This document shows positions 30,595 through 57,030 of a DNA stretch of 64,000 nucleotides, one piece after another. The stretch's first letter is position 1, and every line of letters starts with the position of its first letter. Under the pieces are notes generated by a model that saw only the letters and a list, made by a program, of their open reading frames with translations, had not been told where the DNA came from and did not search any database. The DNA comes from Thalassovita aquimarina. Its GTDB lineage: Bacteria > Pseudomonadota > Alphaproteobacteria > Rhodobacterales > Rhodobacteraceae. Both the position numbers and the translations under genes were made by a program. Location of the stretch: the NCBI RefSeq assembly GCF_018219815.1, contig NZ_JADMKU010000007.1, forward strand, positions 1-64,000. Direction: 5' to 3'.

Positions 30595-30606
30595 GAGGAG
30601 ACAGAG

Positions 30607-34734: not shown

Positions 34735-35561
34735 TGATTTCCCGTATCCTTGCCACCGCGCTGCTTGAATTCGCCATCGCCCGGCGCAATCGCTGGGTGA
34801 TCGTGTCTGTGGCGATGATGATGCTCTTCTCGCTGGTGCTTTCCGCCGCCGGAGCGGCTCCGGCCGGACAGATGGCGGTCGATCCATTGTCCGTCACGGT
34901 CGCCAGCCTGATTTCGCTTGCGGTCTATCTTGTCCCGCTGATCGCGCTGCTCATTTCCTTCGACACCATCGCGGGGGAAAGCGAGCGTGGCACGCTGGCA
35001 TTGAGCCTGACATATCCGTTGGCGCGGACCGAACTGCTGTTTGGCAAGCTCGTCGCGCAGCTTGGCGTTGTCACCATCGCGGTGTTCGCAGGCTATGCCG
35101 TCGCCGCCGTCGCTGCCTTTGCAAGCGGCGGTGCCGAAGCGGCACAAGGATTGCCCGCGCTTTGGCGGCTGGTCTGGACTTCGGTTCTTCTGGGGGCGGT
35201 TTTCCTGTCCCTGGGGCATGCCATGTCCTGCCTTGCGCGTCGGCCCTCGGGGGCGGCGGCCATGGCAATCGGTCTCTGGCTGGTGGCGATCGTGTTGTAC
35301 GATCTCGGGTTGCTGGCGGCGATCGTGGCGGATGACGGCGGAACGTTCACCACCGATGTCTTTCCTTGGGCGCTGGTCCTGAACCCGGCCGATGCCTTCC
35401 GCATCTTCAACCTCGCGGCCTCCGGCGCGGTGGATGCCGCCTCCGGCTTGTCGGGTGCTGCGTCCTCTATCGCGGTCTGGAAGCCGCTCGCCGCGATCCT
35501 GATCTGGCCGCTGGCAGCGGCGCTGCTGGCCAGGCTGTCTTTTCAAAGGGTGGTACCATGA
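34734..35561 (+). CDS. nosY: NosY, membrane permease of the NosDFY complex
   Basis: 275 residues from the ATG at 34734, with GGAGGG eight bases upstream; a GTG at 34731 would also work. Six hydrophobic helices are seen: near 20-40, 55-75, 105-130, 140-165, 170-195 and 245-265. The loop S-F-D-T-I-A-G-E-S-E-R-G-T-L is the ABC2-type coupling segment. It pairs with NosF and NosD for copper-sulfur site assembly of NosZ. The stop overlaps the nosL start. Confidence 0.93.
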   Translation: MISRILATALLEFAIARRNRWVIVSVAMMMLFSLVLSAAGAAPAGQMAVDPLSVTVASLISLAVYLVPLIALLISFDTIAGESERGTLALSLTYPLARTELLFGKLVAQLGVVTIAVFAGYAVAAVAAFASGGAEAAQGLPALWRLVWTSVLLGAVFLSLGHAMSCLARRPSGAAAMAIGLWLVAIVLYDLGLLAAIVADDGGTFTTDVFPWALVLNPADAFRIFNLAASGAVDAASGLSGAASSIAVWKPLAAILIWPLAAALLARLSFQRVVP

Positions 35562-36100
35562 AACGACTTCTTTTCTTTTCTCTTCTCGTTTTGGCCGCCT
35601 GCAAGGAAGACGTGGCGAACCTGCCCGCCCCGATCGACATAACCGAAGAGGCGCTTGGGTATTATTGCCAGATGGCGCTGGTCGAACATGACGGGCCGAA
35701 AGGACAGGCGCATCTGGACGGCATGCCCGCGCCGATCTTCTTCAGCCAGGTGCGCGATGTCATCGCCTATCTTCACATGCCGGAACAGAGCCATGCCGTG
35801 AAAGTGGCCTATGTGCAGGATATGACGCAGGCCGATTGGACCACGCCAGGCGACTGGATCCGGGCGGAGGAGGCGCTTTACGTCGCCGGGTCCGACGCGG
35901 TGGGGGGCATGGGGGCTGCCGAATTCGTGCCGTTTTCCGATCCAACAGCCGCCGAAGCGTTTGCCCGCGATCATGGCGGTCGGGTGCTGGCCTTTGCGGA
36001 CATCCGCGCCAAGGACGTGCTTGGGGCAAAGACGCCGGAAGCCGAGGCCGCATTTGCAACAGACGATATCAATGCCCGCCTGAAGGCGCTCGGGCAGTAA
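35558..36100 (+). CDS. nosL: NosL, outer-membrane lipoprotein copper chaperone
   Basis: 180 residues. The lipobox L-A-A-C places lipidated C15 after a 14-residue signal. The copper-binding motif C37-Q-M39 lies in G-Y-Y-C-Q-M-A-L-V-E-H-D-G-P-K-G-Q, the conserved NosL segment. It delivers Cu(I) for NosZ maturation. It is followed by nosX 12 bases downstream. No defects are visible. Confidence 0.94.
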   Translation: MKRLLFFSLLVLAACKEDVANLPAPIDITEEALGYYCQMALVEHDGPKGQAHLDGMPAPIFFSQVRDVIAYLHMPEQSHAVKVAYVQDMTQADWTTPGDWIRAEEALYVAGSDAVGGMGAAEFVPFSDPTAAEAFARDHGGRVLAFADIRAKDVLGAKTPEAEAAFATDDINARLKALGQ

Positions 36101-36112
36101 GGAGTGAAGTCC

Positions 36113-37027
36113 ATGCACATGAAACGACGCCGTTTTCTGAGCTTTGTATCCGCCGCCTGCCTGACTGCCGCCGCCGCGCCGGCATCAGCGTTTCGCTGGC
36201 AGGGTGTGGCACTGGGCGCTAAGGCGCAGATCGTGCTGGATCACCCCGAGGCCGAGCCCATCGCCGCCGCTGCGCGGGCCGAGATCGCACGGCTGGAGCA
36301 GATCTTCAGCTTGTATCGCCCCGACAGCGAAATCATGCGCCTGAACCGCAACGGGCGGCTTGAGGCGCCTTCATTCGAGATGCTCGAATGCCTGACGTTG
36401 GCGCGCCGGATACATGAGGTGACGGGCGGGCTGTTCGATCCGACCGTTCAGCCGCTTTGGCGATTGCTGGCCGAAGCAGCGGCGGCTGGCCGGATTCCCG
36501 AAGCCTCACCGCTCAAGGCCGCGCGCGCGCTGGTCGGGTTCGACCGTGTCGGAACCGAAGCCGGTCGGATTACGCTTGCTCCCGGTCAGGCGCTGACGCT
36601 GAACGGCATCGCGCAGGGCTTCATCGCGGACAAGGTTGCCGCGCTCTTGGCGGCGCGAGGTGTGAAGGATGTGCTGATCGACACCGGCGAAATCGTCGCG
36701 ATGGGGGCAGGCCGGGGCCATGACGGCTGGCCCGTCACCCTGCGGGGCGAGGACCGGGCCCGTCTCTGGCGCGACCGGGCGTTGGCCAGCTCCGCCACCT
36801 TCGGCACGGTAATGGATGAGGCCGGGCATCAGGGCCATATCCTTGCGCCCGAGGGGTCAGCGCAGGTCCCGACCGAGATCACGATCAGCGCGAAGAGCGC
36901 CGCCATGGCCGATGGTCTGTCCACCGCTCTCTGTCTTGTCGCCAACGAAGCGGAAGCGCGCAATCTGTTGCGTTCGGTCAAGCAGGCGCGGCTGGAGAGG
37001 TTTCTTCAGCGGGCCATGCCAGGTTAG
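36113..37027 (+). CDS. nosX: NosX, ApbE-type FAD:protein FMN transferase
   Basis: 304 residues. The N-terminus M-K-R-R-R-F-L-S-F-V-S carries a twin-arginine-like signal (R-R-R-F-L) ending about A-S-A. The ApbE fold is seen in F-S-L-Y-R-P-D-S-E, L-N-G-I-A-Q-G-F-I-A-D-K and L-I-D-T-G-E-I-V. It attaches FMN covalently to the threonine of NosR in the periplasm. TAAGGAG lies eight bases before the ATG at 36113. It is the last gene of the nos operon. Confidence 0.93.
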   Translation: MHMKRRRFLSFVSAACLTAAAAPASAFRWQGVALGAKAQIVLDHPEAEPIAAAARAEIARLEQIFSLYRPDSEIMRLNRNGRLEAPSFEMLECLTLARRIHEVTGGLFDPTVQPLWRLLAEAAAAGRIPEASPLKAARALVGFDRVGTEAGRITLAPGQALTLNGIAQGFIADKVAALLAARGVKDVLIDTGEIVAMGAGRGHDGWPVTLRGEDRARLWRDRALASSATFGTVMDEAGHQGHILAPEGSAQVPTEITISAKSAAMADGLSTALCLVANEAEARNLLRSVKQARLERFLQRAMPG

Positions 37028-37192
37028 ACCAATTCGCACCGGGTCGAGGTCCTTTCGCACCAAGACAAGCACAGGCGAACGTGTTGGAAAATTCCGCATT
37101 GCGGGACATAAAGCCGGAAAAGAGGTTTTTACTGTTCTTGCGGCGTCATCGGTGACACCTTGCTGCTGGGAATAATGCAAGGAGACAGCCTG

Positions 37193-39634
37193 ATGTCGGC
37201 ACTTCCGTCCTCGGCACGTGTGGTGATCATTGGTGGTGGCGTGGTTGGCGCTTCGGCTCTTTATCATCTGGCAAAGGCTGGCTGGCGCGATTGCGTGCTG
37301 CTGGAAAAGAATGAATTGACCGCGGGGTCGACATGGCATGCGGCGGGCAACGTCCCGACCTTTTCCTCCAGCTGGTCGATCATGAACATGCAGCGCTATT
37401 CGGCGGAACTTTACCGGCAGCTGGGCGACGCGGTGGATTACCCGATGAATTACCATGTCACCGGCTCCGTGCGCATCGGCCACAGCGCCGAGCGGCTGCA
37501 GGAATTCCAGCGCGTCAAGGCGATGGGGCGTCACCAGGGCATGAATCTGGAGGTGATGACCCCTGATGAGCTGCGCGCGGTCTATCCTTTCCTGGAAACC
37601 CACGATCTCAGCGGCGGGCTCTACGATCCCTATGACGGCGATATCGACCCGGCGCAGTTGACGCAGGCGTTGGCCAAGGGCGCGCGGATGGAAGGGGCGC
37701 ATGTCGAACGGTTCTGCCCCGTGACCGGAGCGCGGCGCGAGGGGGGCGAATGGATCCTCGAAACGCCCAAGGGCGAGATTCGCTGCGAATATGTGGTCAA
37801 TGCGGCCGGGTATTACGCGCAACAGGTCGGGCGGCTGTTTGGCCGCGAGGTGCCGATGATGGTGATGAGCCATCAATACCTGTTGTTCGACACGATCCCC
37901 GAGCTTGAAACATGGTCGCGCGATGCTGGGCACAAGCTGCCGCTGCTACGTGACGTGGACAGCTCCTATTACCTGCGGCAGGAAAAATACGGGCTCAACC
38001 TTGGCCCGTACGAGGGCAACTGCAAGGCGCATTGGGTGACGCCCGACGATCCCTTCCCCGAGGATTTCAGCTTCCAGCTCTACCCGGACGACCTGGACCG
38101 GCTGGAATGGCATATCGGCGATGCGATGGCCCGCGTGCCTTTGCTGGAACAGGCCAACCTGACCCGGGTGATCAATGGCCCGATCCCCTATACGCCCGAC
38201 GGCAACCCGCTGATCGGTCCGATGCCGGGGGTGCCGAACGCGTTCGAGGCCTGCGTCTTCACCTTCGGCATCTGCCAGGGCGGCGGCGCCGGCAAGGTGT
38301 TGGCCGAATGGATCACCGAAGGGGCGACCGAATGGGACATGTGGTCCTGCGATCCGCGCCGCTTCACCGGCTTCGAGGACCGCGAATATTGCATCGCCAA
38401 GGGGATGGAGGTCTATGGTCACGAATACGCCATGCATTTCCCGCATCATTTCTGGCCGGAAGGGCGCGACAAGAAATACGGGCCCCTGCATGACCGGATG
38501 GCGGCGGCTGGCGCGGTTTTCGGGGCTTGGAACGGCTGGGAACGGGCGGCATGGTTCGCGCGTCCCGGCGACGATACCAGCGAAGAGGGCGCCCGGACCT
38601 GGCGCCGCGACGGACCGTGGGCAGAGGCGATGGCCGAAGAATGCGCGGCGGTGCGCGATGCGGCGGGCGTTCTCGACCTGCCGGGATTTTCACGCTTCCG
38701 GCTGCGCGGCGCGGGAGCGGCTGACTGGCTTGAGCGGCAGATCACCGGGCGGGTGCCGAAGGTCGGACGCATCGGCCTTGGCTACTTCGCGGACGACACG
38801 GGCCGGATCGTCACCGAAATGTCGCTGGCCCGGCTGGCCGAGGATGAAATCTGGCTGATCACCGCCGCAACGGCGCAGCTGCATGACGAGGAATGGCTGC
38901 TGACGCAGTTGGAACCGGGGCTGGAGCTGACTGATGAAACCGATGACTGGTCCTGCCTGGTCGTCACCGGTCCCAAGAGCCGCGAAATCCTTGCCCCGCT
39001 GACAGATGGTGACCTGACCCTGCCGTGGCTGAGCGTGCAGGATGCCCGGATTGCGGGCACCGAGGCGATGTTGATGCGGGTGAGCTATGCCGGCGAACTG
39101 GGCTGGGAAATCCACGCGCGGTTTGACGACATGCCCGCCATCCATGGCGCGGTGGTGCAGGCGGGCGCGCCGTTGGGCCTGCGGCCGTTCGGCATGTTCG
39201 CGCTCGATTCCCTGCGGATCGAAAAGGGGTACCGGGCGTGGAAGCAGGACCTTTCGACCGATTACACCGTTCTCGAAGGCGGGCTGGGCCGGTTCGTCGA
39301 TTTCGGCAAGCCGGAGTTCCGCGGCAAGGCGGCGCTGCAGGCGCAGGACGCCAGCGGGGTCAGCAAACGCTTCGTCACGGTGAAAATCGAAGCCGAGGAG
39401 TTCGATCCGCCCTACATGGCCTCGCTGATCCATGAAGGCGAGGTCGTGGGGGAGCTGACATCCGCAGGCTGGGGACACAGGGTGCAGGCCTGTATCGGGC
39501 TGGGCATGTTGCGCGCCGATCTGGCGGAGCCGGGCACCGAACTGCAGGTCTCCGGTTATGGGCAAGCAAGCGCCGCCGTGGTGCTGCCTGACAAACCCGC
39601 ATGGGACCCCGACAACAGCCGCATCAGGGCGTGA
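37193..39634 (+). CDS. Dimethylglycine/sarcosine dehydrogenase-like FAD enzyme with GcvT domain
   Basis: 813 residues. The N-terminal DAO-type domain has the motif V-I-I-G-G-G-V-V-G (11-19) and A-G-S-T-W-H-A-A-G-N (about 44-53), the segment that carries the covalent-flavin histidine in this family. The C-terminal half (from about 430) is a GcvT/aminomethyltransferase-type tetrahydrofolate-binding region, with D-L-P-G-F-S-R-F, G-x-x-S-Y-A-G-E-L-G-W-E and C-terminal G-W-G-H-R. Such enzymes N-demethylate dimethylglycine, sarcosine or related N-methyl compounds and pass formaldehyde to folate. AAGGAG precedes the ATG at 37193. No betaine or glycine-cleavage gene is adjacent, and the exact substrate is unknown. 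Confidence 0.85.
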   Translation: MSALPSSARVVIIGGGVVGASALYHLAKAGWRDCVLLEKNELTAGSTWHAAGNVPTFSSSWSIMNMQRYSAELYRQLGDAVDYPMNYHVTGSVRIGHSAERLQEFQRVKAMGRHQGMNLEVMTPDELRAVYPFLETHDLSGGLYDPYDGDIDPAQLTQALAKGARMEGAHVERFCPVTGARREGGEWILETPKGEIRCEYVVNAAGYYAQQVGRLFGREVPMMVMSHQYLLFDTIPELETWSRDAGHKLPLLRDVDSSYYLRQEKYGLNLGPYEGNCKAHWVTPDDPFPEDFSFQLYPDDLDRLEWHIGDAMARVPLLEQANLTRVINGPIPYTPDGNPLIGPMPGVPNAFEACVFTFGICQGGGAGKVLAEWITEGATEWDMWSCDPRRFTGFEDREYCIAKGMEVYGHEYAMHFPHHFWPEGRDKKYGPLHDRMAAAGAVFGAWNGWERAAWFARPGDDTSEEGARTWRRDGPWAEAMAEECAAVRDAAGVLDLPGFSRFRLRGAGAADWLERQITGRVPKVGRIGLGYFADDTGRIVTEMSLARLAEDEIWLITAATAQLHDEEWLLTQLEPGLELTDETDDWSCLVVTGPKSREILAPLTDGDLTLPWLSVQDARIAGTEAMLMRVSYAGELGWEIHARFDDMPAIHGAVVQAGAPLGLRPFGMFALDSLRIEKGYRAWKQDLSTDYTVLEGGLGRFVDFGKPEFRGKAALQAQDASGVSKRFVTVKIEAEEFDPPYMASLIHEGEVVGELTSAGWGHRVQACIGLGMLRADLAEPGTELQVSGYGQASAAVVLPDKPAWDPDNSRIRA

Positions 39635-39680
39635 GGCGGAGAGATCGGCCGCAACAGCCCGTCGAGGTCATAATAAACAA

Positions 39681-39703
39681 CCTGCCCGGCTTGGCTGGGC
39701 AGG
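39681..39703. terminator. Bidirectional hairpin between convergent genes
   Basis: A 7-bp stem CCTGCCC / GGGCAGG with a 9-base loop lies 47 bases after the dehydrogenase stop and 52 before the SDR stop, flanked by an A-rich left side and a short T run on the right. It should terminate both. Confidence 0.6.
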
Positions 39704-39754
39704 TCCGTTTCCCGTGATCGCAAAAGGGTGGGGCGCCACGGGCGCCCGATCCCG

Positions 39755-40540
39755 TCAGCCCTTCGCGTGCCAGCCATTGTCGACATAGGTCGCGGTGCCG
39801 TTGACGAAACTCGCGTCGTCGGAAGCAAGGAAGACGACGGTATTGGCGACTTCTTCGGGATAACAAATGCGCCCCTGAGTGGCCGCCATGCCGCTGTCTT
39901 CCCATTCCTGGCCCGCCGCGTCCAGTTCGGCGATTTCCTTCAACCCGTGCGCAGTTTCCACGAAGCCGGGGCAGACCGCATTGCAGCGGATGCCGGCATC
40001 GCGATATTCGGTCGAAATGGTGCGCGACAGCTGCAGAACGGCCCCCTTGGACATGCAGTAGACGCTTTCCAGCGCATAGCCCAGTTCGGCCGCGATTGAC
40101 GAGGTGATCACGATCGAACCGCCGCCCGAAGCCGCCATTTCCTTCACCGCACGGCGGGTCACGAGGAAGGCCGATTTCACGTTCAGGTCCATCAGCCAGT
40201 CGTATTCTTCCTCGGTCGTTTCGTGCAGCGGCTTCACGATGATCGAACCGGCGTGGTTGAACAGCACGTTGTAGGGCCCGAAGGTGGCCACCGCCGCGTC
40301 GAAGGCGGCGTCGATCTGATCCGCCTTGGTCACGTCGCAGGCGAAGAAAGCGGCCCTGCCGCCGGCGTCCTGGATCATCCGGACGGTTTCCTGCCCGGCC
40401 TCTTCCTGAATGTCGAGGATCGACACGGTCGCGCCTTCGCGGGCGAAGGCCAGCGCCGTTGCCCGCCCCATCCCGGCCGCACCGCCTGTGATTACCGCGA
40501 CCTTGCCGTCGAGCCGTCCGGTTCGGATCTGATCAGTCAT
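39755..40540 (-). CDS. Short-chain dehydrogenase/reductase
   Basis: 261 residues. The cofactor motif T-G-G-A-A-G-M-G is at about 15-22. D-I-Q-E-E in the second strand suggests NAD(H) preference. The N-H-A-G, S-S-I-A and Y-C-M-S-K active-site blocks are present. The start at 40540 is preceded by GAGAGGGGAA on the minus strand. The substrate is unknown; it is a typical glucose/3-oxoacyl-reductase-like member. It is convergent to the dimethylglycine-dehydrogenase-like gene and shares a terminator with it. Confidence 0.85.
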   Translation of the reverse strand: MTDQIRTGRLDGKVAVITGGAAGMGRATALAFAREGATVSILDIQEEAGQETVRMIQDAGGRAAFFACDVTKADQIDAAFDAAVATFGPYNVLFNHAGSIIVKPLHETTEEEYDWLMDLNVKSAFLVTRRAVKEMAASGGGSIVITSSIAAELGYALESVYCMSKGAVLQLSRTISTEYRDAGIRCNAVCPGFVETAHGLKEIAELDAAGQEWEDSGMAATQGRICYPEEVANTVVFLASDDASFVNGTATYVDNGWHAKG

Positions 40541-40991
40541 GCTATTCCCCTCTCCATTGATATCTTTTCTCGCACCTTCGTTGATCAAGCAGTGCATGAC
40601 CGGCACCGAAGGTCAATAATTCCGTGGTCGGGACGCCAGGGAAGCCGGGTGAACGGCCCCGGATTGCTTGGAGGGTCGCCTTGTGCCGTTTACGTGAGGG
40701 GGAGGTTCAGGCCTCAGGATGCGGTTCGCCGGGCTTGACCGGAACGTCCGTTCCTCGGTGACACGCGTCTCTTCGTTCCCTGCCGCATTTGCTGAGGCGC
40801 AGACCAACCTTGATGCACAGACATGTGACTGGAGCAGGGTGCCGATGATCGGACGGTATGTTGTTCCGTACTCGGCACCTTTCGTCCCTTCCGATAGGGG
40901 GCTCTCGATAATGGCTGCCGCGGCGCGGATGGTGGGGACCCTGCCGAACGGGTTTTCATCGGTGGCAACCGCTGTCCTGCCTGGCGGCCCG
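40541..40991. other. Intergenic region, nothing recognised
   Basis: These 451 bases lie between the start of the SDR gene and the end of the LuxR-type gene, both on the minus strand. No frame shows family features or a good ribosome-binding site. It should contain the SDR promoter. Confidence 0.45.
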
Positions 40992-41798
40992 TTATTCGGG
41001 GGCGGTTTCCCCGAACTGGGCTTCGAACAGGACGAACGAGGTCATCTGCTGGGCCGATGAAACGCCCAGTTTGCGAAACGCGCGCTGTCGCAGGGTGCGT
41101 ACCGTATTTTCCGAAACAGACATGTTCAGCGCGGTGCCGGCGACCGTGAGGCCGGCCAGAATGGAGTCGCAGGCGGCTGCCTCGCGCGGGGACAGTTTGG
41201 AAAACCGGGGAAGCCCGCGTTCCTTCAGGCTGGACACCGAAACGCCCGGGCGGAACTGGAAAGCCTCGGATCCGACGATCCTGTGGCGCAGGGAAATCGC
41301 TTCGTGGGCGACCGGCAGAAGCGCTTCGAAGCCGCGCATTTCCTTCTGCGAAATCATGCCGTCGGCCTTGCTGCGCAGGAAAAAGGACAGGATCGCGTGA
41401 TCCCCCCTGCGGGTGGCAATCGACAGCTTCTCGCACATGCCCGCCCGGACATAGCGCGGAAAGCGCGGATCCGTTTCGGTCGGCGCGAAGCGGCTCAGCG
41501 TCGACGCCCGTTCGCTGGAGGCTTCGACCGCGGCCTGCAATTCGGCGAAGACATCGGGATTGGCGACGAAGTCGGTGCCGTCGCGGTGAAACCAGTAAGA
41601 CCCGATATCGCCGCTGCAGATCGAAAAGACGGCCTTTTTCCGTTGCACGCTGGTCCAGAAGTAGGCGCCGAAATTGCGGATCGGCCCGGCCTGCGAAACG
41701 AAGTCCAGGACGGAGGCGCCGAAATCCGGCGCTTCGACCTTTCTGAGCAATCTGGCAACGCCAAGGGCATCGAAGGCACTGATGAATTCGTCATCCAT
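40992..41798 (-). CDS. LuxR-type helix-turn-helix transcriptional regulator
   Basis: 268 residues from the ATG at 41798. The C-terminal 65 residues are a GerE/LuxR helix-turn-helix: L-S-P-R-E-A-A-A-C, then M-S-V-S-E-N-T-V-R-T-L-R-Q-R-A-F-R-K-L-G-V. The N-terminal 200 residues match no sensor domain I recognise; there is no receiver aspartate pattern or obvious autoinducer-binding signature. The longer frame to 42038 runs into the opposing gene. It is divergent from the dehalogenase fusion with 84 bases between the starts, the typical place for its activator. The effector may be the halogenated substrate, by inference. Confidence 0.8.
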   Translation of the reverse strand: MDDEFISAFDALGVARLLRKVEAPDFGASVLDFVSQAGPIRNFGAYFWTSVQRKKAVFSICSGDIGSYWFHRDGTDFVANPDVFAELQAAVEASSERASTLSRFAPTETDPRFPRYVRAGMCEKLSIATRRGDHAILSFFLRSKADGMISQKEMRGFEALLPVAHEAISLRHRIVGSEAFQFRPGVSVSSLKERGLPRFSKLSPREAAACDSILAGLTVAGTALNMSVSENTVRTLRQRAFRKLGVSSAQQMTSFVLFEAQFGETAPE

Positions 41799-41882
41799 AT
41801 GGATGACATACGCCACTTGCCAGCGCCGTGTAAAGGTCGCCCCGGTGCCGGGTTCCGGCGTAATATCTGGGAGGTTTTCTCT

Positions 41883-44800
41883 GTGACAAAGCTGTTTTCG
41901 ACCAAGTCGAGGCCCGTTCACCTCGGTCCCTTTCCGATGGAACGCATCCGGCGCACCGACCGGCATCCGGCGCTGGCGCAGGTCAGCACGCCCGCGGGGC
42001 CGGTCGCCGGTGAAAAACCGGCCCTTTCGATCGCCCATGCGATCAGTCGCTACCAGGCCATGCTCGACATCGTGCGCGACGGGCAGGTCATGGCCGAAAC
42101 ATCAGAAATCCCCGACGATCCGGTCGCGAGGGCAAATCACCTGAAGGCAGCGGGCTACTATTTCGACGCCACGATGATGGGCGTTTGCCGCATCGCGCCC
42201 GAACACTGGCTGGACGACCAGATCGAAAACCCGGCGACCGAGGGCATCCGCGATGAATTGCGCAAGGGCCAGCCCAAGGTCTTTTCCGGCGGCATCGACC
42301 AGATCTTTGCCGATATCGAAGCCGCCTCGCAACGCAAGCTGGAACCGGTGCGCCATCATACGCATGCGATCGCGGTCCTTGTCGAATACACCCGCGACAT
42401 AGCACCCGGCGAACCCGGCCATGACTGGATCGCTGGCACCCAGGCAGAGCGCGCGGCGCTTCTGACCTCGAACACGGCAATCCTGCTGGCCAATTACCTG
42501 CGCCTTCTGGGGCACGAGGCGCGGGCGCATTCGCTGTATGCGCGAGATGTCGATCTAAACCGGGTGGCGGTGTCCGCGGGGCTGGCGCAGATCGGGCAGG
42601 GCGGTATCGTCAACCCATTCCTGGGCGGCCGCTTCGGCCTGGCTGTGGTGACCACCACACTCGACATCGCGCCCGATCGGCCGATCGATCCGCATGCGAA
42701 GGCACCCGGCGGATTGAAATGGCGTCTGGGATATGGTTCGGGGCGGAGCAAGAAGACGGCGATCCCCTACGAGGGCCGGTCCTTCCACCTGGGACCATAC
42801 CCGTTTGAAAAACTCAAGCGCGTGGATCGTCCGACCACCTATATGGACGAAGAAAACATCCCGCGCCCCTCGAAACGCGCGGATTTCTTTGCCCGGACTC
42901 TTTACGGTGATCTTGGCAAACCGATGCAGGATGCGGCCCGCGGCGGCATGTATATCGGGAAAAACCCGATCGGCGCCTGCGCACGCCGGGCCCTCGGGGC
43001 ACTGTTGCTGCTGCAATATGGCGAAGCGCGCGGCCCGGTTTCCGACACGGTTTCCGATCCGGTCAAGAACAGCGACGACCTCAAGGCGGCGTCCTACTAC
43101 CTGTCCTGCGATGCGGTCGGCATGTCGCGCTGCCCCGACTGGGCCTATTATTCGCACAATGCCGGTGGCGAACCGCTCTCTCCGTATCACGGCAGCGCGA
43201 TTTCGCTGCTGTTCGATCAGGGGCATGAGACGATGGAGGGCGCGTCGGGCGATGACTGGATCAGCGGGGCGCAGTCGATGCGGGCTTACTTGCGCTTTTC
43301 CCTGATCGGCGGGGTGATCGCCGAGCATATCCGTCGCCTCGGCTATTCGGCGCGCGTCCATTCGGTGCTGGACAGCGAAGTCGTCCAGCCGCCGCTGGTT
43401 CTTCTGGCCGGGCTGGGCGAGGTCAGCCGGATCGGCGATGCCATCCTCAGCCCGTTCCTCGGGCCGCGCATCAAGTCCGGAACCGTCACCAGCTCGATAC
43501 CCATGGCGCATGACAAGCCGATCGATTTCGGAATGCAGAACTTTTGCGAAAGCTGCCTGAAATGTGCGCGGGAATGCCCTTCGGGGGCGATCTCGGCAGG
43601 GCCCAAGCTGATGTATAACGGCTATGAAATGTGGCGCTCGGACCCCGAGAAATGCACCCGCTATCGGATCACCAACGCGGCCGGCGCCATGTGCGGGCGC
43701 TGCATGAAGACCTGTCCGTGGAATTTCGAAGGACTGTTCACCGACAACGCCTTCCGCTGGATGGTGCAGAACCTGCCCGCCTCGGCCAAGAAACTGGCCG
43801 AGCTAGACGATATCCGCGGCCGCGGCACGATCAACCCGGTCAAGAAATGGTGGTGGGATCTGGTCATGAGCGACGAGGGGTCGCGCTTCGTGCTGGCCGA
43901 GGAAACCAACAAGAGGGAACTGCAACGCGATCTGAAGCTGAAATACGAAGACCAGACGCTTGCCGCCTATCCGGCGAACCTTATGCCGCAGCCGTGGCCG
44001 GTGGCGCAGCCGATCGACCGCGACAAGGGGGTCGAGGCTTATCGCGCGCTCATCAGCGCCGAGGAACACCAGCGGCGCAAGGCCGCCGGAGAAAAGGGTC
44101 TGGTGCCGGCCCGCAAGATCGTCAACGAAGAACCGCCGATGTTCCCGGTGGTGATCACCAAGCGGCAGGACCTGTCCAACAGTGTCGTCCTGTTCGAATT
44201 CGCGCGGCCCGACGGCACGCCGTTGCCCGAATGGGACGCCGGGGCGCATATCGATATCGTGGTCGCGCCGGAATACCTGCGGCAATATTCGCTGTCCGGC
44301 GATCCGGCCGACAACAGCCGCTATCAACTGGGCATTCAGCGCGAGGAAAAGGGCAAGGGCGGGTCGAAGCTGCTGCATCAGGTCTTCAAGGAAGGGCGCA
44401 CGATTTTCATATCGAAGCCGCACAACCATTTCCCGCTGGACGAAGATGCCGAACTGACCCTGCTGATGGGCGGCGGGATCGGGGTGACGCCGATGATCGC
44501 CATGGCCCACCGGCTGCACGCTCTGGGCAAGGACTTCGTGCTGCACTATTCGGCGCGTTCGCGCGAACAAAGCGGGTTCGCCAAAGTGCTGCAGGACATG
44601 CCTTGGGCGGAAAACGTGGCCTTCCATTTCTCGAGCGAAACCGGCCGGGCCGACCTTGATGAACTGATCCCGACGCACCGCCCCGGCATGAATCTTTATA
44701 CCTGCGGCGGCGATGCCTACATGGCGTCGATCTTTGAAACCGCCCGGCAAAAGGATTGGCCGGAAAACGACCTGTCGCGCGAATATTTCTCGGTTCCCGA

Positions 44801-45086
44801 ACAGCCGGACCGCGAGAACTTTGCGTTCGAAATCGAGTTGAAGAAATCGGGCCGCGTCATCGAGGTTCCGGCGGAAAAGTCGGCGACCGACGCGCTGGCC
44901 GAGGCCGGAATTCACGTTGATACCAAATGTTCCGACGGCATCTGCGGTGTTTGTGCCTGCAATCTGGTTTCGGGCGAGGTGGATCACCGCGACTTCGTTC
45001 TGTCTGCGGAGGAGCGGGAAAAGAAGGTGATCCCGTGCTGTTCGCGTGCGGCCGGAGAAGGTGCGCGTATCGTTCTCGACCTGTGA
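41883..45086 (+). CDS. Self-sufficient reductive dehalogenase: tandem RdhA modules fused to flavin/NAD/[2Fe-2S] reductase
   Basis: 1067 residues from the GTG at 41883 (GGGAGG eight bases upstream). Residues 1-290 and about 296-620 are two copies of the RdhA fold; the paired openings V-H-L-G-P-F-P-M-E-R and F-H-L-G-P-Y-P-F-E-K show the duplication. Only the second copy leads into ferredoxin motifs: C555-x2-C558-x2-C561-x3-C565-P, and C591 with C604-x2-C607-x3-C611-P. Residues about 750-1067 form a phthalate-dioxygenase-reductase module: flavin motif R-Q-Y-S-L-S (800-805), nucleotide motif G-G-G-I-G-V-T-P (863-870) and a [2Fe-2S] set C1016, C1021, C1024 and C1052 or C1053. There is no Tat signal and no RdhB anchor gene, so the protein is cytoplasmic and catabolic, using NAD(P)H. 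This matches the NpRdhA/BhbA type acting on halophenolic acids; the substrate here is unknown. It should need cobalamin. Confidence 0.9.
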   Translation: MTKLFSTKSRPVHLGPFPMERIRRTDRHPALAQVSTPAGPVAGEKPALSIAHAISRYQAMLDIVRDGQVMAETSEIPDDPVARANHLKAAGYYFDATMMGVCRIAPEHWLDDQIENPATEGIRDELRKGQPKVFSGGIDQIFADIEAASQRKLEPVRHHTHAIAVLVEYTRDIAPGEPGHDWIAGTQAERAALLTSNTAILLANYLRLLGHEARAHSLYARDVDLNRVAVSAGLAQIGQGGIVNPFLGGRFGLAVVTTTLDIAPDRPIDPHAKAPGGLKWRLGYGSGRSKKTAIPYEGRSFHLGPYPFEKLKRVDRPTTYMDEENIPRPSKRADFFARTLYGDLGKPMQDAARGGMYIGKNPIGACARRALGALLLLQYGEARGPVSDTVSDPVKNSDDLKAASYYLSCDAVGMSRCPDWAYYSHNAGGEPLSPYHGSAISLLFDQGHETMEGASGDDWISGAQSMRAYLRFSLIGGVIAEHIRRLGYSARVHSVLDSEVVQPPLVLLAGLGEVSRIGDAILSPFLGPRIKSGTVTSSIPMAHDKPIDFGMQNFCESCLKCARECPSGAISAGPKLMYNGYEMWRSDPEKCTRYRITNAAGAMCGRCMKTCPWNFEGLFTDNAFRWMVQNLPASAKKLAELDDIRGRGTINPVKKWWWDLVMSDEGSRFVLAEETNKRELQRDLKLKYEDQTLAAYPANLMPQPWPVAQPIDRDKGVEAYRALISAEEHQRRKAAGEKGLVPARKIVNEEPPMFPVVITKRQDLSNSVVLFEFARPDGTPLPEWDAGAHIDIVVAPEYLRQYSLSGDPADNSRYQLGIQREEKGKGGSKLLHQVFKEGRTIFISKPHNHFPLDEDAELTLLMGGGIGVTPMIAMAHRLHALGKDFVLHYSARSREQSGFAKVLQDMPWAENVAFHFSSETGRADLDELIPTHRPGMNLYTCGGDAYMASIFETARQKDWPENDLSREYFSVPEQPDRENFAFEIELKKSGRVIEVPAEKSATDALAEAGIHVDTKCSDGICGVCACNLVSGEVDHRDFVLSAEEREKKVIPCCSRAAGEGARIVLDL

Positions 45087-45171
45087 TTGCCGGGACTATC
45101 CGTTCGGCCCGTCCCGAGTACAGCCAGTTCTCGGGACGCGGTCGCATGGGGCAGGTCGCCTCATATGTCAG

Positions 45172-45414
45172 TCAATGATCGCAGTGGCTTTCTGCCGCTT
45201 GAGCCGGCGTCAATGCAGGCGATAAAAAACCGCGCGCTGTCGATCCCCAGATCCGGTTCTGGTCCTCTGCCGAAAGATGGCGGATGAGGTCGTCTGTCAG
45301 CGCAGCCCAGTTCGCGTAGTCGCCGGCAAGGTTCAGTACCGGCCAGTCCGAGCCCCACATCAGCCGGGCGGGGCCGTCCGAGCCGGTGATCTTCAAGAAG
45401 GCGACCAGCGCCAT
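45172..45414 (-). pseudogene. C-terminal remnant of an amidohydrolase-2 (L-fuconolactonase-like)
   Basis: About 60 codons carry the family C-terminus: G-P-A-R-L-M-W-G-S-D-W-P-V-L-N-L-A-G-D-Y, the active-site aspartate block of the amidohydrolase-2 family, followed by a helix and R-I-W-G-S-T-A-R-G-F. Upstream codons lose the similarity and no frame supplies the missing about 220 residues. The start region has no ribosome-binding site. It is therefore a decayed fragment lying just after the dehalogenase gene. Confidence 0.7.
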
Positions 45415-45525
45415 CGTTGGTCCGGACGACCTGATCGTGATCCCGCGCGGTTCGGAAAAGACCGACTGGGGATCGAGGGGCTGGGTGTTCAGCGCCAGGA
45501 CGTGATCGCGGACACCTGAACCGGG

Positions 45526-45559
45526 CCGCGCCGCCGCTTTGGTCGCGCGGCGCGGTTTT
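45526..45559 (+). terminator. Rho-independent terminator
   Basis: A 9-bp perfect GC stem CCGCGCCGC / GCGGCGCGG with a 12-base loop is followed at once by TTTT in the plus direction. It lies about 440 bases after the dehalogenase stop, past the amidohydrolase remnant, and is the first clear plus-strand terminator downstream of that gene. Confidence 0.65.
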
Positions 45560-45662
45560 CCTGTGGTTCAAGGGGCTGCCGTCTTGCTGAGCCTTCCCCC
45601 GGACAACCGGACATTGACGTAAGCGACGATCTGTTGTCCGCGGGTCTTGGATGAGATTGGGA

Positions 45663-46013
45663 TCAGGACGCGAAAGCCAGGGCATTCAGCAGCGCCGCAA
45701 GCAGGGCGTGCGGCAGCGTCGGGCCGCGTCCGATCCCAAGGTATGCGTCGTCGTCGCGCGTCGCGGAGCGTCTGAGCGAACATCTCCAGTGACCGTTCGG
45801 GAGCCGGGCGATCCCTTCCATCGACAGGGTCCACCCGGGCCGGATCGCATAGATCAGGGCCAGAACGCTGTCGGTCGATTCCAACTGCCCGCGCCCGATT
45901 TCCAGGTCATCGGAATGCTTCTGGATTTCGTCCATGACCCGATCGGCGAGGTCGTCCCCAAGAACGAAGGCCGCTTCCACCTCATGGGCGAGTTCGGCGA
46001 GTGTCTTATCCAT
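45663..46013 (-). CDS. Hypothetical protein, 116 residues
   Basis: Not recognised with confidence. The N-terminal half is helical and acidic (A-H-E-V-E-A-A-F-V-L-G-D-D-L-A-D-R-V). The C-terminal half contains a W-x-L-x-M strand, an R-D-D-D-A-Y turn and a helix ending L-L-A-A-L-L-N-A-L. The pattern resembles small alpha-beta ABA-sandwich proteins, but this is weak. It has a strong ribosome-binding site (GGGAGGAC) seven bases before the ATG at 46013. It is divergent from the PEP synthase gene, and the shared promoter has an FNR-type box, which suggests low-oxygen expression of both. Confidence 0.65.
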   Translation of the reverse strand: MDKTLAELAHEVEAAFVLGDDLADRVMDEIQKHSDDLEIGRGQLESTDSVLALIYAIRPGWTLSMEGIARLPNGHWRCSLRRSATRDDDAYLGIGRGPTLPHALLAALLNALAFAS

Positions 46014-46063
46014 TGCGTGTCCTCCCTTTGGGTTGAGACTGAACGTTGCGGCACGCTCTGGCT

Positions 46064-46077
46064 TTGACAGAGATCAA
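46064..46077. promoter_or_regulatory. FNR/Dnr-type box TTGACAGAGATCAA between the hypothetical gene and ppsA
   Basis: TTGAC-N4-ATCAA matches the FNR-type consensus at nine of ten positions. It is 51 bases before the hypothetical gene start and 59 before the ppsA start, so it could control either or both. It is the same motif class as at 27937 and 62305. Confidence 0.7.
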
Positions 46078-46135
46078 CGCCCGCAGGCGATGCCTCTCTA
46101 GGATGAAATGGGGCTGTCAGGAGCGGGGAATTGTT

Positions 46136-48520
46136 ATGCCGATTGATGACGAAGTTATTTTTTTCGAGAATCTGCGCCGCGGCGACGTGCCTGTTGTCGG
46201 TGGAAAGAATGCCTCGCTTGGCGAGATGGTACAGACACTTGGCGCGATGGGCATCCGGGTGCCGCCGGGATTTGCCACCACCGCGAACGCCTTTCGCCGC
46301 TACATTCAGGCAAACACGCTCGACGCGCTGATCACCGATACGCTGGCCGATTATGGCGACGGAAAGATCACGCTGCACAAGGCGGGCGAAATGATCCGCT
46401 CCGCGATCGTCGCGGGCAACTGGCCGGAGGAAACCGAAACCGCGATCCGACAAGCCTACCGGTCGCTTTCGGATCGGTCCGGCCAGCGCGACATCGCGGT
46501 CGCGGTCCGTTCCAGCGCCACCGCCGAGGACCTGCCGGATGCCAGCTTCGCCGGTCAGCAGGAAACCTTTCTGAACGTGACCGGCGAAGAAGACCTGCTG
46601 ATCGCCTGTCGCAAATGCTATGCCTCGTTGTTCACCGACCGCGCGATCACCTATCGCGAACTGAAGGGATTCGACCACATGCAGGTCGCCCTGTCGATCG
46701 GGGTGCAGCGGATGGTGCGGTCGGACATCGGCGGGGCGGGGGTGATGTTTTCGATCGATACCGAAACGGGATTTGACAAGGTCGTGCTGATCGACGCGGC
46801 TTGGGGGCTTGGCGAAAACATCGTGCAGGGCGCCGTCACGCCGGACGAATACCAGGTCTACAAGCCCTTCCTTGACCGCGACGGCCTGCGCCCGATCATC
46901 GAGAAGAAGCTCGGCGCCAAGGAAAAGAAAATGATCTATTCCGGGGCGGGCGCCGGCGATCCGGTGCGCAACGTTCCGACCTCGAAGGCCGAACGCGCGC
47001 GTTTCGTTCTGAGCGATGACGAGGTGCTGGATCTGGCCCGGCAGGCCGCCGTCATCGAAACCCATTACGGTCAGCCGATGGACATGGAATGGGCCAAGGA
47101 CGGCGTGACCGGCGAACTGTTCATCGTGCAGGCGCGCCCCGAAACGGTTCAGTCGCGCACCGCTGCGCAGACGTTCAAACGCTATTCCGTCGGCGCGCAC
47201 GGGGCGACGATCGTGACCGGGCTGTCGGTCGGGGAACAGGTCGCATCGGGGCATGTATGCCTGATCGAAACCGCCGAGGATATCGATCGTTTCGTCGATG
47301 GCGCGGTTCTGGTGACGTCCACGACCGATCCGGACTGGGTGCCGATCATGAAACGCGCCTCGGCCATCGTGACCGACCACGGCGGCCGGACCAGCCACGC
47401 TGCCATCGTCAGCCGGGAACTGTGCGTTCCGGCGCTCGTTGGGTGCGGCAACGCGACCTATGTTCTGCACGATCAGCAGGACGTCACTGTCAGTTGCGCC
47501 GAAGGCGATGTCGGCTATGTCTACGAAGGCCATGCCGAGGTCACCGTCGAGGATCTCGACATGGCGGAGGTGCCCGCGACGCGCACCAAGGTGATGCTGA
47601 ACATGGCCAATCCCGCGACGGCGGCCCGTTGGTGGCGCTTGCCGGCGGATGGCGTCGGGCTGGCGCGGATGGAATTCGTCATTACCAACACGATCCGGGT
47701 GCATCCCGAGGCCTTGCTGCACTTCGACGAAATTCAGCAGCCCGATGTCCGGGCCGAGATCGAGGAACTGACGCGCGGGTATGAGGACAAGACCGACTAC
47801 TTTGTCGACCGGCTCGCGCTCGGCCTGTCGCGGATCGCCGCCGTTGCCTATCCGAACCCGATGATCCTCAGGATGAGCGACTTCAAGACCAACGAATATG
47901 CCGACCTGCTGGGCGGGGCGCAGTTCGAACCGGAGGAAGCGAACCCGATGATCGGCTGGCGCGGCGCGTCGCGCTATTACGATCCCGCCTACCGGGACGG
48001 GTTCCGGCTGGAATGCCGCGCGATCCGCAAGCTGCGCGAGGTGATCGGGTTTGACAACGTGATGGTGATGATCCCGTTCTGCCGAACGCCGGAAGAGGCG
48101 GACCGAGTCATCGAGGTGATGCAGCAAGAGGGGCTTGAACGCGGCGCGAACGGGCTGCAGACCTACGTGATGTGCGAAATCCCCTCCAACGTGGTGCTGG
48201 CCGAGGAGTTCGCCAAACGGTTCGATGGCTTTTCGATCGGGTCGAACGACCTGACCCAACTCACATTGGGCATCGATCGCGACAGCGACAAGCTCGCCCC
48301 GCTGTTCGACGAGCGCCACGAGGCGGTGCAGTGGATGATCCGCACGGTGATCCGCAAGGCGCATGAAGCGGGGGCGAAGATCGGGCTGTGCGGGCAGGCG
48401 CCGTCGAACTATCCGGATTTCGCGCGGGTGCTGGTTGAGGCCGGGATCGATTCAATCTCGGTGGTGCCGGACAGTTTCGTCCAGGTGAAGAAACACGTCG
48501 CCGCGGCTGAAAACGGCTGA
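46136..48520 (+). CDS. ppsA: Phosphoenolpyruvate synthase
   Basis: 794 residues, the usual length. The enzyme makes PEP from pyruvate and ATP with release of AMP and phosphate, the entry to gluconeogenesis. The N-terminal pyruvate-phosphate-dikinase nucleotide domain opens with V-G-G-K-N-A-S-L-G-E-M. The swivelling domain has the phosphohistidine H421 in G-G-R-T-S-H-A-A-I-V-S-R-E. The C-terminal TIM barrel includes F-S-I-G-S-N-D-L-T-Q-L and the catalytic cysteine in K-I-G-L-C-G-Q-A-P-S. AGGAG precedes the start. The FNR-type box upstream suggests induction when oxygen is limiting. Confidence 0.95.
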   Translation: MPIDDEVIFFENLRRGDVPVVGGKNASLGEMVQTLGAMGIRVPPGFATTANAFRRYIQANTLDALITDTLADYGDGKITLHKAGEMIRSAIVAGNWPEETETAIRQAYRSLSDRSGQRDIAVAVRSSATAEDLPDASFAGQQETFLNVTGEEDLLIACRKCYASLFTDRAITYRELKGFDHMQVALSIGVQRMVRSDIGGAGVMFSIDTETGFDKVVLIDAAWGLGENIVQGAVTPDEYQVYKPFLDRDGLRPIIEKKLGAKEKKMIYSGAGAGDPVRNVPTSKAERARFVLSDDEVLDLARQAAVIETHYGQPMDMEWAKDGVTGELFIVQARPETVQSRTAAQTFKRYSVGAHGATIVTGLSVGEQVASGHVCLIETAEDIDRFVDGAVLVTSTTDPDWVPIMKRASAIVTDHGGRTSHAAIVSRELCVPALVGCGNATYVLHDQQDVTVSCAEGDVGYVYEGHAEVTVEDLDMAEVPATRTKVMLNMANPATAARWWRLPADGVGLARMEFVITNTIRVHPEALLHFDEIQQPDVRAEIEELTRGYEDKTDYFVDRLALGLSRIAAVAYPNPMILRMSDFKTNEYADLLGGAQFEPEEANPMIGWRGASRYYDPAYRDGFRLECRAIRKLREVIGFDNVMVMIPFCRTPEEADRVIEVMQQEGLERGANGLQTYVMCEIPSNVVLAEEFAKRFDGFSIGSNDLTQLTLGIDRDSDKLAPLFDERHEAVQWMIRTVIRKAHEAGAKIGLCGQAPSNYPDFARVLVEAGIDSISVVPDSFVQVKKHVAAAENG

Positions 48521-48539
48521 TCCGAAGGGCAGGGCGCAG

Positions 48540-48567
48540 GCGGGCCTGTCCATGGAAACAGGCCCGC
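48540..48567. terminator. Bidirectional terminator hairpin between ppsA and ABC permease
   Basis: A 10-bp perfect stem GCGGGCCTGT / ACAGGCCCGC with an 8-base loop sits between the convergent ppsA (stop 48520) and permease (stop 48578) genes. It should end transcription from both sides. Confidence 0.7.
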
Positions 48568-48577
48568 AACGCCGGTG

Positions 48578-49846
48578 TTATTCCTTCACGTAGGGCTTGC
48601 CGTCCGCGGCGGGCGGCCGGGCCCGGCCGATCAGGCCGGCAACGACGATGATCGTTGCGATATAGGGGGCCATGGACAGGAATTCCGACGGGATCGGCGT
48701 GTTCAGCAGCGCCAGCTTCTGCTGCAGCGAGTCGGCGAAACCGAACACCAGCGCCGCCATCAGCGCGCCGACCGGGTGCCAGCGGCCGAAGATCATCGCC
48801 GCCAGACCGATGAAGCCGCGCCCGCCGGTCATGTTTTCGTCGAACCGTCCGACCGACCCCAGGGTGAACCATGCGCCGCCGAACCCCGCCACCATGCCGC
48901 CAAGGGTGACGTGGATGTAGCGGGTGCGGTACACGTTGACGCCCAGCGTATCGGCGGCGCGGGGATGTTCCCCAACGGCCCTTGCGCGCAATCCGCTGCG
49001 GGTATGGAACAGGTAATAGGTCGCAAGCGTCACGAGGATCAGCGCGCCGTAGACGAAGATGTTCTGGTTGAACAGCATCGGCCCGATCACCGGGAGGTCG
49101 CCCAGCAGCGGGATCTTCACCGCCCGGAAAACCGGCGCGTTGTTCAGTTGGCGCAATTCGGAAAATACCTGCGAACTGACGTAACTCGTCACCCCGAGGA
49201 CGAACAGGTTGATGACCACGCCGGCGACGATCTGATCCATCCTGTAGGTCACCACCAGCGCGGCCAGGATGAAACCGAAAGCCCCGCCAACAAGCACCGC
49301 CGCGACCAATCCGCCCCAGCCGCCCAGCAGCGACCCGATCAGCGCCCCGGTGAAGGCGCCGGCCAGCAGCATCCCCTCGATCGCGATATTGACCACCGCG
49401 ACGCGTTCGCACAGCACCCCGGCCAAACCGCCAAGCGCGATCGGCATGGCGCGCACCACGGTGGCCTGCAACATGCCGGTCAGCGAAAACGATTTGCCCG
49501 CCGTCGCCCAGACCAGGAAGGCAAAGACCAGGATCGCCAGCCCGAAGCCCAGCGACAGCGAAGTCCAGCGCGTCCCGCCCCGGATCAGTTCCCGCGCGCC
49601 AAGAAAGGCCAGCAGCGCCGCCGCGACATAGGTGAACGGCCCCGCCGGAACCACCAGGTTGGGCAGCGCGAAAGGATCGGTCGGGCGTGACAGGCGGAAG
49701 GTTGCGTCGCCCGAAAGGCCCAGCCCGAAAACGAACACGACAAACAGCGCCAGAACGATCAGCAGGACGCCGATGATCCGGGATTGGCGCTGCTTGCTGG
49801 TTTCGATCTTCTGGGTGGCGATGGAAGTCTCGGTCACGTCGGTCAT
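48578..49846 (-). CDS. BMP-type ABC transporter permease (YufQ-like)
   Basis: 422 residues, BPD_transp_2 family. About nine hydrophobic helices are visible after an unusual long N-terminal part with three helices (about 25-45, 72-95, 105-125). The family block E-G-M-L-L-A-G-A-F-T-G-A and G-x-x-P-x-A-A-D-T-L-G-V-N-V are typical. It should pair with the upstream permease in a ribose/nucleoside-type importer. It is the last gene of a four-gene operon and overlaps the preceding gene by four bases. Confidence 0.88.
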   Translation of the reverse strand: MTDVTETSIATQKIETSKQRQSRIIGVLLIVLALFVVFVFGLGLSGDATFRLSRPTDPFALPNLVVPAGPFTYVAAALLAFLGARELIRGGTRWTSLSLGFGLAILVFAFLVWATAGKSFSLTGMLQATVVRAMPIALGGLAGVLCERVAVVNIAIEGMLLAGAFTGALIGSLLGGWGGLVAAVLVGGAFGFILAALVVTYRMDQIVAGVVINLFVLGVTSYVSSQVFSELRQLNNAPVFRAVKIPLLGDLPVIGPMLFNQNIFVYGALILVTLATYYLFHTRSGLRARAVGEHPRAADTLGVNVYRTRYIHVTLGGMVAGFGGAWFTLGSVGRFDENMTGGRGFIGLAAMIFGRWHPVGALMAALVFGFADSLQQKLALLNTPIPSEFLSMAPYIATIIVVAGLIGRARPPAADGKPYVKE

Positions 49847-50997
49847 TGCGACCCTCCAGCAGCTTTGTCGGATTTCCGGAATCCCCAGGGGAAGATCGCG
49901 CGCACCAGAAGAGGCGCGGCGATGAACACGATGATCAGGGCCTGGATGATCGCGATCAGGTCGATCGACACGCCCGCGTCCACCTGCATCTGTCGTCCTC
50001 CGGCCTCCAACCCGCCAAACAGCAGGCCGGCGAACAGGATGCCGACCGGGTGCGAGCGGCCAAGCAGGGCAAGCGCGATAGCGTCAAAGCCGATCCCGGC
50101 CGAAAAGCCGGGGCTCGCCCGGTCGAGCACGCCCAGAACCTGTGCCGCGCCCGCAAGCCCCGCCAGCGCCCCGGCGGTGCCCATGGCCGCGACGATCACG
50201 AGGCCCGATTTGATCCCCGCGTAGCGCGCCGCGTCCGGGTTTTCGCCGCTGGCGCGGAACGCGAAACCGATCTTCGAGCGGAACAGGATCCACCAGACAA
50301 GCGCGACCGCCGCGAGCATCAGGAACACTCCGGCATGGACGCGCAGATTGGGATCAAGCCAGTCCAGCAGGCGTGGCAGTTCCCCCGCGTCGGGCACCGA
50401 TTTCGAAATCGGATCGGACCGGCCTTCCTTCTGGATATACGGTTGCCGCAGCAGGTAGTTCAGAAGCTGGAACGAGATCAGGTTCAGCATGATCGTCGAA
50501 ATCACCTCATGCGCGCCGGTCGTTGCTTTCAGTATCCCCGCGATAGAGGCATAAAGCGCCCCCACTACCGCGCCGGCGAGCAGCGAAAGCGGCATCAGCA
50601 GCAGGAAAGGCAGGCCGTCGAAGGTGAATGAAAACACCACCGCCGCCGTGCCGCCCAGCAGAAGCTGCCCCTCGGCCCCGATATTGAACAGCCCGGTCCG
50701 GAAGCCGAGCCCGAGGCCGAGCCCCGCCAGCACCAGCGGGATCGCCGCCGTGATCGTTTCCGAAAGGGCGTTGACGGACCCCACCGATCCCTTGGCCAGC
50801 GCCACGAAACTTTTACCGATCGTCGCCAGATCGACCCCCGTGGCGAACATGATCACGGCCCCCAGGATCAGCGCCACGATCACCGCGAAGACCGGCACGA
50901 TCACCAAATCCTCGAAATCCTGATGCCCGCGCGTGGCGCGCTTGAGAAGCGCGCGGCCGGAATCGTCCAGAGCGCGTTTTCCGATCGACGTCGTCAT
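49843..50997 (-). CDS. BMP-type ABC transporter permease (YufP-like)
   Basis: 384 residues, BPD_transp_2 family with about nine helices. F-N-I-G-A-E-G-Q-L-L-L-G is the classical signature, followed by the S-G-E-N-P-D-A-A-R-Y-A-G-I coupling segment. With the second permease and the ATPase it forms a purine-nucleoside-like importer. Four-base overlaps link it to both neighbours. Confidence 0.9.
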   Translation of the reverse strand: MTTSIGKRALDDSGRALLKRATRGHQDFEDLVIVPVFAVIVALILGAVIMFATGVDLATIGKSFVALAKGSVGSVNALSETITAAIPLVLAGLGLGLGFRTGLFNIGAEGQLLLGGTAAVVFSFTFDGLPFLLLMPLSLLAGAVVGALYASIAGILKATTGAHEVISTIMLNLISFQLLNYLLRQPYIQKEGRSDPISKSVPDAGELPRLLDWLDPNLRVHAGVFLMLAAVALVWWILFRSKIGFAFRASGENPDAARYAGIKSGLVIVAAMGTAGALAGLAGAAQVLGVLDRASPGFSAGIGFDAIALALLGRSHPVGILFAGLLFGGLEAGGRQMQVDAGVSIDLIAIIQALIIVFIAAPLLVRAIFPWGFRKSDKAAGGSQ

Positions 50998-52517: not shown

Positions 52518-52588
52518 CGATTCCGCTCCCTGCCCGAAGGGGACCGGCGCGTCCTGCCGCGAAACAGGCGCGCCGGGTTGTCCTGGTG

Positions 52589-55893: not shown

Positions 55894-55961
55894 GGAAACC
55901 ACTCCTGCAGCGGGGCCGGCCACGCGTGAAACGCGGGCCGGCCCCTTCCGATCGTGTCGGG

Positions 55962-56990: not shown

Positions 56991-57030
56991 AGAGGCCTCC
57001 CTTAGTCTCTTGTGCGATGATAGGGGCGGG

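Follow-up and report, generated by a model that had tools for sequence, protein, structure and literature searches.

A stretch of 64,000 nucleotides from Thalassovita aquimarina (NCBI RefSeq assembly GCF_018219815.1, contig NZ_JADMKU010000007.1, positions 1 to 64,000), called the window below, carries on its forward strand, at 41883-45086, a gene for a reductive dehalogenase (RdhA) fused to a phthalate dioxygenase reductase (PDOR) module. Judging from its sequence, we are highly confident that the product is a cytoplasmic, self-sufficient catabolic reductive dehalogenase of the BhbA/JtRdhA class. It is well supported that a known class gains a further member here. An earlier reading of this DNA, made from the letters alone (the sequence-only reading), had presented the gene as the strongest candidate for unusual biology in the window; the enzyme is not an oddity, and its class is common in the family of the organism.

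The gene, its domains and the location of the product

The gene is a single intact frame of 1067 codons with its stop codon at 45084-45086. It opens with GTG at 41883, with a ribosome-binding ggagg 8 bases upstream. The longest open reading frame (ORF) opens earlier, at 41283; however, for most full-length relatives the alignment sets in within residues 1-6 of the product starting at 41883, and we therefore take this GTG as the right start, as had been proposed.

The match of the frame to a reductive dehalogenase and a PDOR is far beyond chance. In the phmmer search against PDB sequences, NpRdhA (4ras/6zxu, E ~1e-161) covers residues 3-108 and 158-725, CYP116B 6kbh (E 3.9e-60) residues 758-1060, and phthalate dioxygenase reductase 2pia (E 1.8e-56) residues 755-1067. 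The NCBIfam model TIGR02486 (reductive dehalogenase) scores 194.8 bits against a cut-off of 160.35, and Fer4_7, Fer4_16, FAD_binding_6 and Fer2 are above their Pfam cut-offs. The phmmer, TIGR02486, Pfam and alignment results confirm the domain order of the sequence-only reading, a single polypeptide in which an RdhA part with two ferredoxin-type cysteine sets precedes a reductase.

Residues ~1-290 (41883-42752) form a vestigial, non-catalytic copy of the cobalamin-binding domain, recognised by phmmer and by alignment with the N-terminal half of NpRdhA (38.2% identity over 233 positions). The NpRdhA-aligned region that follows spans residues ~291-725; alignment places in it the catalytic cobalamin domain (residues ~291-545, 42753-43517), with F336, G462, S465, M466, Y469 and K531, and then two [4Fe-4S] cysteine sets together with R595 (residues 555-611, 43545-43715). 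The PDOR module (residues ~746-1067, 44118-45083; phmmer, Pfam and Foldseek) has flavin and nucleotide domains followed by a plant-type [2Fe-2S] domain.

The alignment comprises 47 rows: 34 from 33 of the 151 homologue-bearing genomes of a family sample (394 genomes, taken as Rhodobacteraceae in the broad sense on the strength of the named relatives), 7 named genome loci, 5 plasmid loci and NpRdhA. Left out were L001 and L002 (the same genes as the window copy and L045), L012-L015 (incomplete or not full-length fusions), second copies under another locus id and rows shorter than 950 residues. Each of the [4Fe-4S] cysteines 555/558/561/565 and 591/604/607/611 is invariant in all 47 rows, and the [2Fe-2S] cysteines 1016/1021/1024/1052 are kept in all 46 rows that reach them.

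From its sequence, the product is predicted to be soluble and cytoplasmic. The motif scan found no Tat motif RRxF[LK], and the sole RR in the first 60 residues (position 23) has no hydrophobic stretch; a simple hydropathy scan, run without a positive control, found no transmembrane or hydrophobic segment. No rdhB-like ORF was found at 36900-50100 by a crude hydropathy scan, which looked for ORFs of 40-250 codons containing a pair of hydrophobic stretches, likewise without a positive control. The earlier claim that both a Tat signal and an rdhB neighbour are missing agrees with these scans.

They also bear on the possibility that the enzyme is of the respiratory type, conserving energy with an organohalide as the terminal electron acceptor. 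Such enzymes belong to the same family and share the two [4Fe-4S] sets, and a respiratory nos cluster lies nearby; but neither the Tat signal nor the rdhB anchor by which this type is recognised is seen, a PDOR is fused to the protein, and both the best matches and the tree place it among catabolic RdhAs. We reject the respiratory type, to which we give next to no chance.

Active site, proposed reaction and characterised relatives

Residues F291/S422/M423/Y426/K488/R552 of NpRdhA correspond to F336/S465/M466/Y469/K531/R595 of the window enzyme; all six are identical, and they are the same in all 47 rows. Their roles are taken from PMC7565698 and PMC10463259 (these papers, as the others cited here, are represented by extracts). 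Thus Y469, K531 and R595, the catalytic Tyr/Lys/Arg whose loss the sequence-only reading had named as fatal to it, are all kept. Eleven NpRdhA positions were compared: the six catalytic or binding ones are invariant, and pocket positions 310, 311, 419 and 452 differ from the window enzyme. At position A419, beside the second bromine, the window copy has Gly462 and is alone among the 47 rows in this. Elsewhere in its clade (10 rows) the residue is Val; among the 32 mainstream rows, 21 carry Val, 9 Cys and 2 Ser. Ser is also seen in the BhbA pair, and Val in L062. A bulky substitution at A419 of NpRdhA moved the preference to a mono-halogenated substrate (extract of PMC7565698); considering this effect, we expect that Gly462 would widen the pocket for a second ortho group.

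We propose the following reaction by analogy with characterised relatives, from which the cofactors, the electron path and the halogen and substrate preference are taken. A hydride would pass from NAD(P)H to the PDOR flavin (FMN in JtRdhA), and single electrons would then travel from the PDOR [2Fe-2S] cluster through the two [4Fe-4S] clusters to cobalamin. With the phenol hydroxyl held by Ser465, Lys531 and Arg595, the cobalt would take the ortho-halogen off the bound phenol, and Tyr469 (with Lys531) would supply the proton. The halide would be released and the dehalogenated phenol would become a carbon source, this step being without energy conservation. Brominated or iodinated ortho-halophenols are most likely the favoured substrates; the extract of PMC10463259 describes ortho-halophenol specificity in the catabolic RdhAs characterised so far.

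The same extract reports NADPH-driven debromination by JtRdhA of Jhaorihella thermophila, which was produced in E. coli with btuCEDFB, and a fused reductase in most catabolic RdhAs. Compared by that description, JtRdhA has the same vestigial and catalytic cobalamin domains, two [4Fe-4S] clusters and fused FMN/[2Fe-2S] PDOR as the window enzyme, and likewise the equivalents of Y426/K488/R552 and no Tat signal; near the second bromine site it is described as having minor conservative changes, whereas in the window enzyme the residue matching A419 is Gly. BhbA (Comamonas sp. 7D-2, plasmid pBHB, L059) agrees with the window enzyme in length, domain order and the tested residues, with 49.6% identity over 1060 positions, although it falls in another clade; its gene adjoins protocatechuate 4,5-dioxygenase genes on the plasmid, and none of these turned up among the scanned window neighbours. 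NpRdhA (Nitratireductor pacificus, 4ras) shares the catalytic and vestigial domains and the six tested residues (42.9% identity over 666 positions) but, unlike the window enzyme, has no PDOR module. The earlier assignment to the NpRdhA/BhbA-type catabolic group therefore stands as to membership; as a match for the whole fusion, NpRdhA fails for want of the reductase, and BhbA and JtRdhA (the latter by the PMC10463259 extract) fit. The CYP116B P450s (6kbh, 6laa; OhpA) have the same C-terminal type of PDOR, but with a haem P450 in front.

The characterised reductive dehalogenase A0A2T7UTL8 of Pararhodobacter aggregans is taken to differ from the L007 protein; the two were set apart by description, not by sequence. 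According to the extract of PMC13101508, A0A2T7UTL8 shares 72.2% identity with a Roseobacter enzyme that has its Fe-S motifs at residues 283-345, and we judge it a shorter protein from the position of these motifs.

Several observations weigh against our assignment. BhbA, the closest characterised enzyme compared by sequence, is just 50% identical, so that the substrate could differ from that of BhbA. Pfam PF13486 was unlisted for the product at E <= 0.01, in a search without a positive control. The AlphaFold2 model (12 alignment rows) is of low confidence (mean pLDDT 65), with long runs below 50 in the catalytic core, and is too weak for pocket measurements; even so, the suggested structure prediction and search gave NpRdhA as the top Foldseek match (1.1e-42), followed by CYP116B (3.2e-30) and PDOR 2pia (3.3e-28). 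Of corrinoid genes, which the earlier reading had also proposed to look for, a CobN-type cobaltochelatase gene is above cut-off in the genome and speaks in favour, but CobN alone is no proof of corrinoid synthesis. Finally, PcaG, the alpha subunit of protocatechuate 3,4-dioxygenase, was not found in the genome; hence not every aromatic route is complete, and protocatechuate 3,4-dioxygenase was rejected as an outlet. PobA and HmgA are above cut-off there and count for the assignment.

Distribution in the family and the second copy

Homologues (E <= 1e-100) occur in 151 of the 394 family genomes, and most of those listed are full length. This count, together with the fused reductase in most catabolic RdhAs (PMC10463259, extract), contradicts the earlier description of the group as a small one. 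The survey scored at most two candidates per genome; two homologues are listed in 3 of the 151 genomes, including this one. In a sample of the phylum, 18 of 398 genomes, again including this one, have homologues, and 15 of the 18 belong to the same family; two of the three matches outside it end before the PDOR module. An RdhA homologue (42%) in an Alphaproteobacteria metagenome-assembled genome (L013:8001-9977) has a frame of 711 codons ending near the end of the RdhA part, and may be an unfused relative.

The second rdhA-PDOR copy of the genome (C55:207949-211146, L045) is 54.9% identical to the window copy over 1060 positions. It groups with a relative from the same genus (G076, L050) in the mainstream clade. 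Beside it lie a PreA gene, a PreT-like gene (best matches below cut-off) and recO, an arrangement common to the two genomes. The tree (46 rows) was rooted on BhbA and the Nitratireductor sp. OM-1 enzyme (L061). It places the window copy in a minority clade of 11 rows with support 100/99. This clade has scattered hosts, Pararhodobacter aggregans and a Burkholderiaceae bin among them, a pattern suggestive of horizontal transfer.

Considering the two copies, one may propose that the mainstream one is the working dehalogenase and that the window copy is a diverging or decaying duplicate. The branch of the window copy is indeed long (0.76), and at 12 columns, including one insertion, it differs from what at least 44 of 45 relatives have in common. 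However, its frame is intact through 1067 codons, the catalytic and cluster residues are kept, and its separate, well-supported clade argues against a recent duplication. We regard this proposal as very unlikely.

Neighbouring genes and the P450 set

Divergent from rdhA lies a LuxR-type gene (40992-41816, minus strand, start at 41795 or 41816; profile search), a candidate regulator in which only the GerE domain is recognised. A 39% homologue (E 1e-8) is likewise divergent from rdhA in L056 (genome G193), and only there among the loci compared, many of which have just 1.5 kb of flank; MarR genes adjoin RdhA in L048, L007, L062 and L063. A regulator common to RdhA loci was accordingly rejected. 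Of 14 window proteins tested, not one is a general neighbour of RdhA across the compared loci, and the P450 matches in that comparison are mostly the reductase module of RdhA itself. No Rfam family, corrinoid or other riboswitch, reached its gathering score in the window. Upstream of rdhA are a short-chain dehydrogenase/reductase gene and a sarcosine/dimethylglycine-dehydrogenase-like gene; downstream are ppsA and a BMP-type ABC transporter set (48578-53617), whose best matches, below cut-off, are putative vitamin B6 transporter models.

The nos cluster (28363-37027) consists of R, Z, D, an ABC ATPase, a frame without an NCBIfam match, L and an ApbE-like gene. The sequence-only reading had set the dehalogenase in the context of this N2O respiratory cluster. 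Of the 394 family genomes, 38 have both RdhA and NosZ, which is at chance level (hypergeometric P 0.43 with 151 RdhA genomes, 0.36 with 148), and lie within 25 kb of each other only in this genome and G257. We reject a functional link; the two are only co-located.

The less expected part is a gene set at 54114-60314, 9-15 kb downstream of rdhA, which might act on the RdhA product. On the minus strand, profile matches identify the large TRAP permease (DctM, 54114-55415), the small one (DctQ, 55408-55923, start uncertain) and the TRAP substrate-binding protein (55962-56990). They are followed by a self-sufficient CYP116B P450 with a PDOR module (57114-59423, start uncertain, ORF to 59531; profile and PDB matches), an OhpA-like candidate for the next step. 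Divergent from it, on the plus strand, is an IclR-type regulator (59412-60314, profile match; real start probably ~59628), adjoined by an Old-yellow-enzyme family NADPH dehydrogenase gene (60399-61610). The P450 matches 6kbh with E 0 over residues 38-804, and its PDOR module is 40% identical to that of RdhA. Eight P450 loci were compared with that of the window, and six of them (L046, L068-L072) have the set again, alike in order or in content, although in L071 the TRAP genes are ~10 kb off; G110 and G143 do not have it. With a helix-turn-helix gene, the set is also found on a Sulfitobacter plasmid. The TRAP protein has matches at E <= 1e-110 in 8 of the 394 family genomes, counting this one; the comparison covered 7 of the 8 loci.

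It is tempting to propose that RdhA and this set cooperate: a 3-halo-2-hydroxyphenylacetate would be debrominated to 2-hydroxyphenylacetate, the P450 would convert it to homogentisate, and HmgA would open the ring. Such a joint route is suggested by the data, at a low but appreciable probability, and adds a pathway to the catabolic dehalogenase without replacing that explanation. As described in the extract of PMC8449657, the CYP116B P450 gene ohpA forms an operon with ohpT beside the IclR-type ohpR and serves the conversion of 2-hydroxyphenylacetate to homogentisate, and Pseudomonas putida KT2440 supplied with ohpA is able to grow on 2-hydroxyphenylacetate; the regulator, transport protein and P450 of this proven system are the same content as in the window. 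HmgA (homogentisate dioxygenase) is above cut-off in the genome (C3:29895-31163), the characterised catabolic RdhAs are ortho-halophenol-specific (PMC10463259, extract), and RdhA, TRAP, IclR and P450 genes occur together in L046, a locus of the family genome whose RdhA is closest. On the other hand, the window P450 shares just 54.6% identity with its counterpart in C. metallidurans CH34, a strain which according to the PMC8449657 extract also uses 2-hydroxyphenylacetate.

The linkage data can be read both ways. Distances were taken from 148 of the 151 RdhA genomes, the other three (G033, G160, G269) having no NosZ or P450 matches in the lists. RdhA and a CYP116B P450 are both present in 10 of the 394 genomes, and in 4 of these the two gene starts are no more than 25 kb apart (7.6-22.2 kb). 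The control pairs, RdhA-NosZ and P450-NosZ, are this close in 2/38 and 0/8; with this genome left out, the ratio is 3/9 against 1/44 (Fisher P 0.013), although the 25-kb limit was set after the data had been seen. These counts are affected by contig breaks: pairs share a contig in only 6/10 (RdhA-P450), 7/38 (RdhA-NosZ) and 2/8 (P450-NosZ), and for same-contig pairs outside this genome the difference is 3/5 against 1/7 (P 0.15). A binomial P of 5e-6 for RdhA-P450 proximity overstates the linkage, since the window itself is counted in it and placement is taken to be random. Co-occurrence is not significant (RdhA in 10 of 18 P450 genomes, P 0.10). The TRAP protein occurs without an RdhA match in 4 of its 8 genomes (G048, G092, G138, G288), from which it follows that the P450/TRAP set has a job of its own. 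In G110 and G143 no member of the window TRAP families was seen; the G143 RdhA is in the other clade (L033), and that of G110 is 55% identical and outside the tree. In the open-access literature, a search for reductive dehalogenases in connection with P450 and PDOR gave the JtRdhA paper (PMC10463259) alone, and one in connection with 2-hydroxyphenylacetic acid gave a single Dehalococcoidia paper, known from its listing.

A catabolic island, in which two single-polypeptide, PDOR-powered enzymes would act in turn, RdhA dehalogenating a TRAP-imported ortho-halogenated 2-hydroxyphenylacetate and the CYP116B P450 yielding homogentisate, has in our view a small chance of being right. If true, Gly462 would fit the acetate side chain or iodine instead of a second bromine.

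The 151 of 394 genomes with a homologue show that a fused, NAD(P)H-driven reductive dehalogenase is nothing out of the ordinary in the family, so that gaining carbon through dehalogenation in the cytoplasm may be widespread in it. The window copy, with its unusual pocket residue, represents a second clade, and the P450 nearby points to a concrete candidate substrate of a natural type for RdhA.

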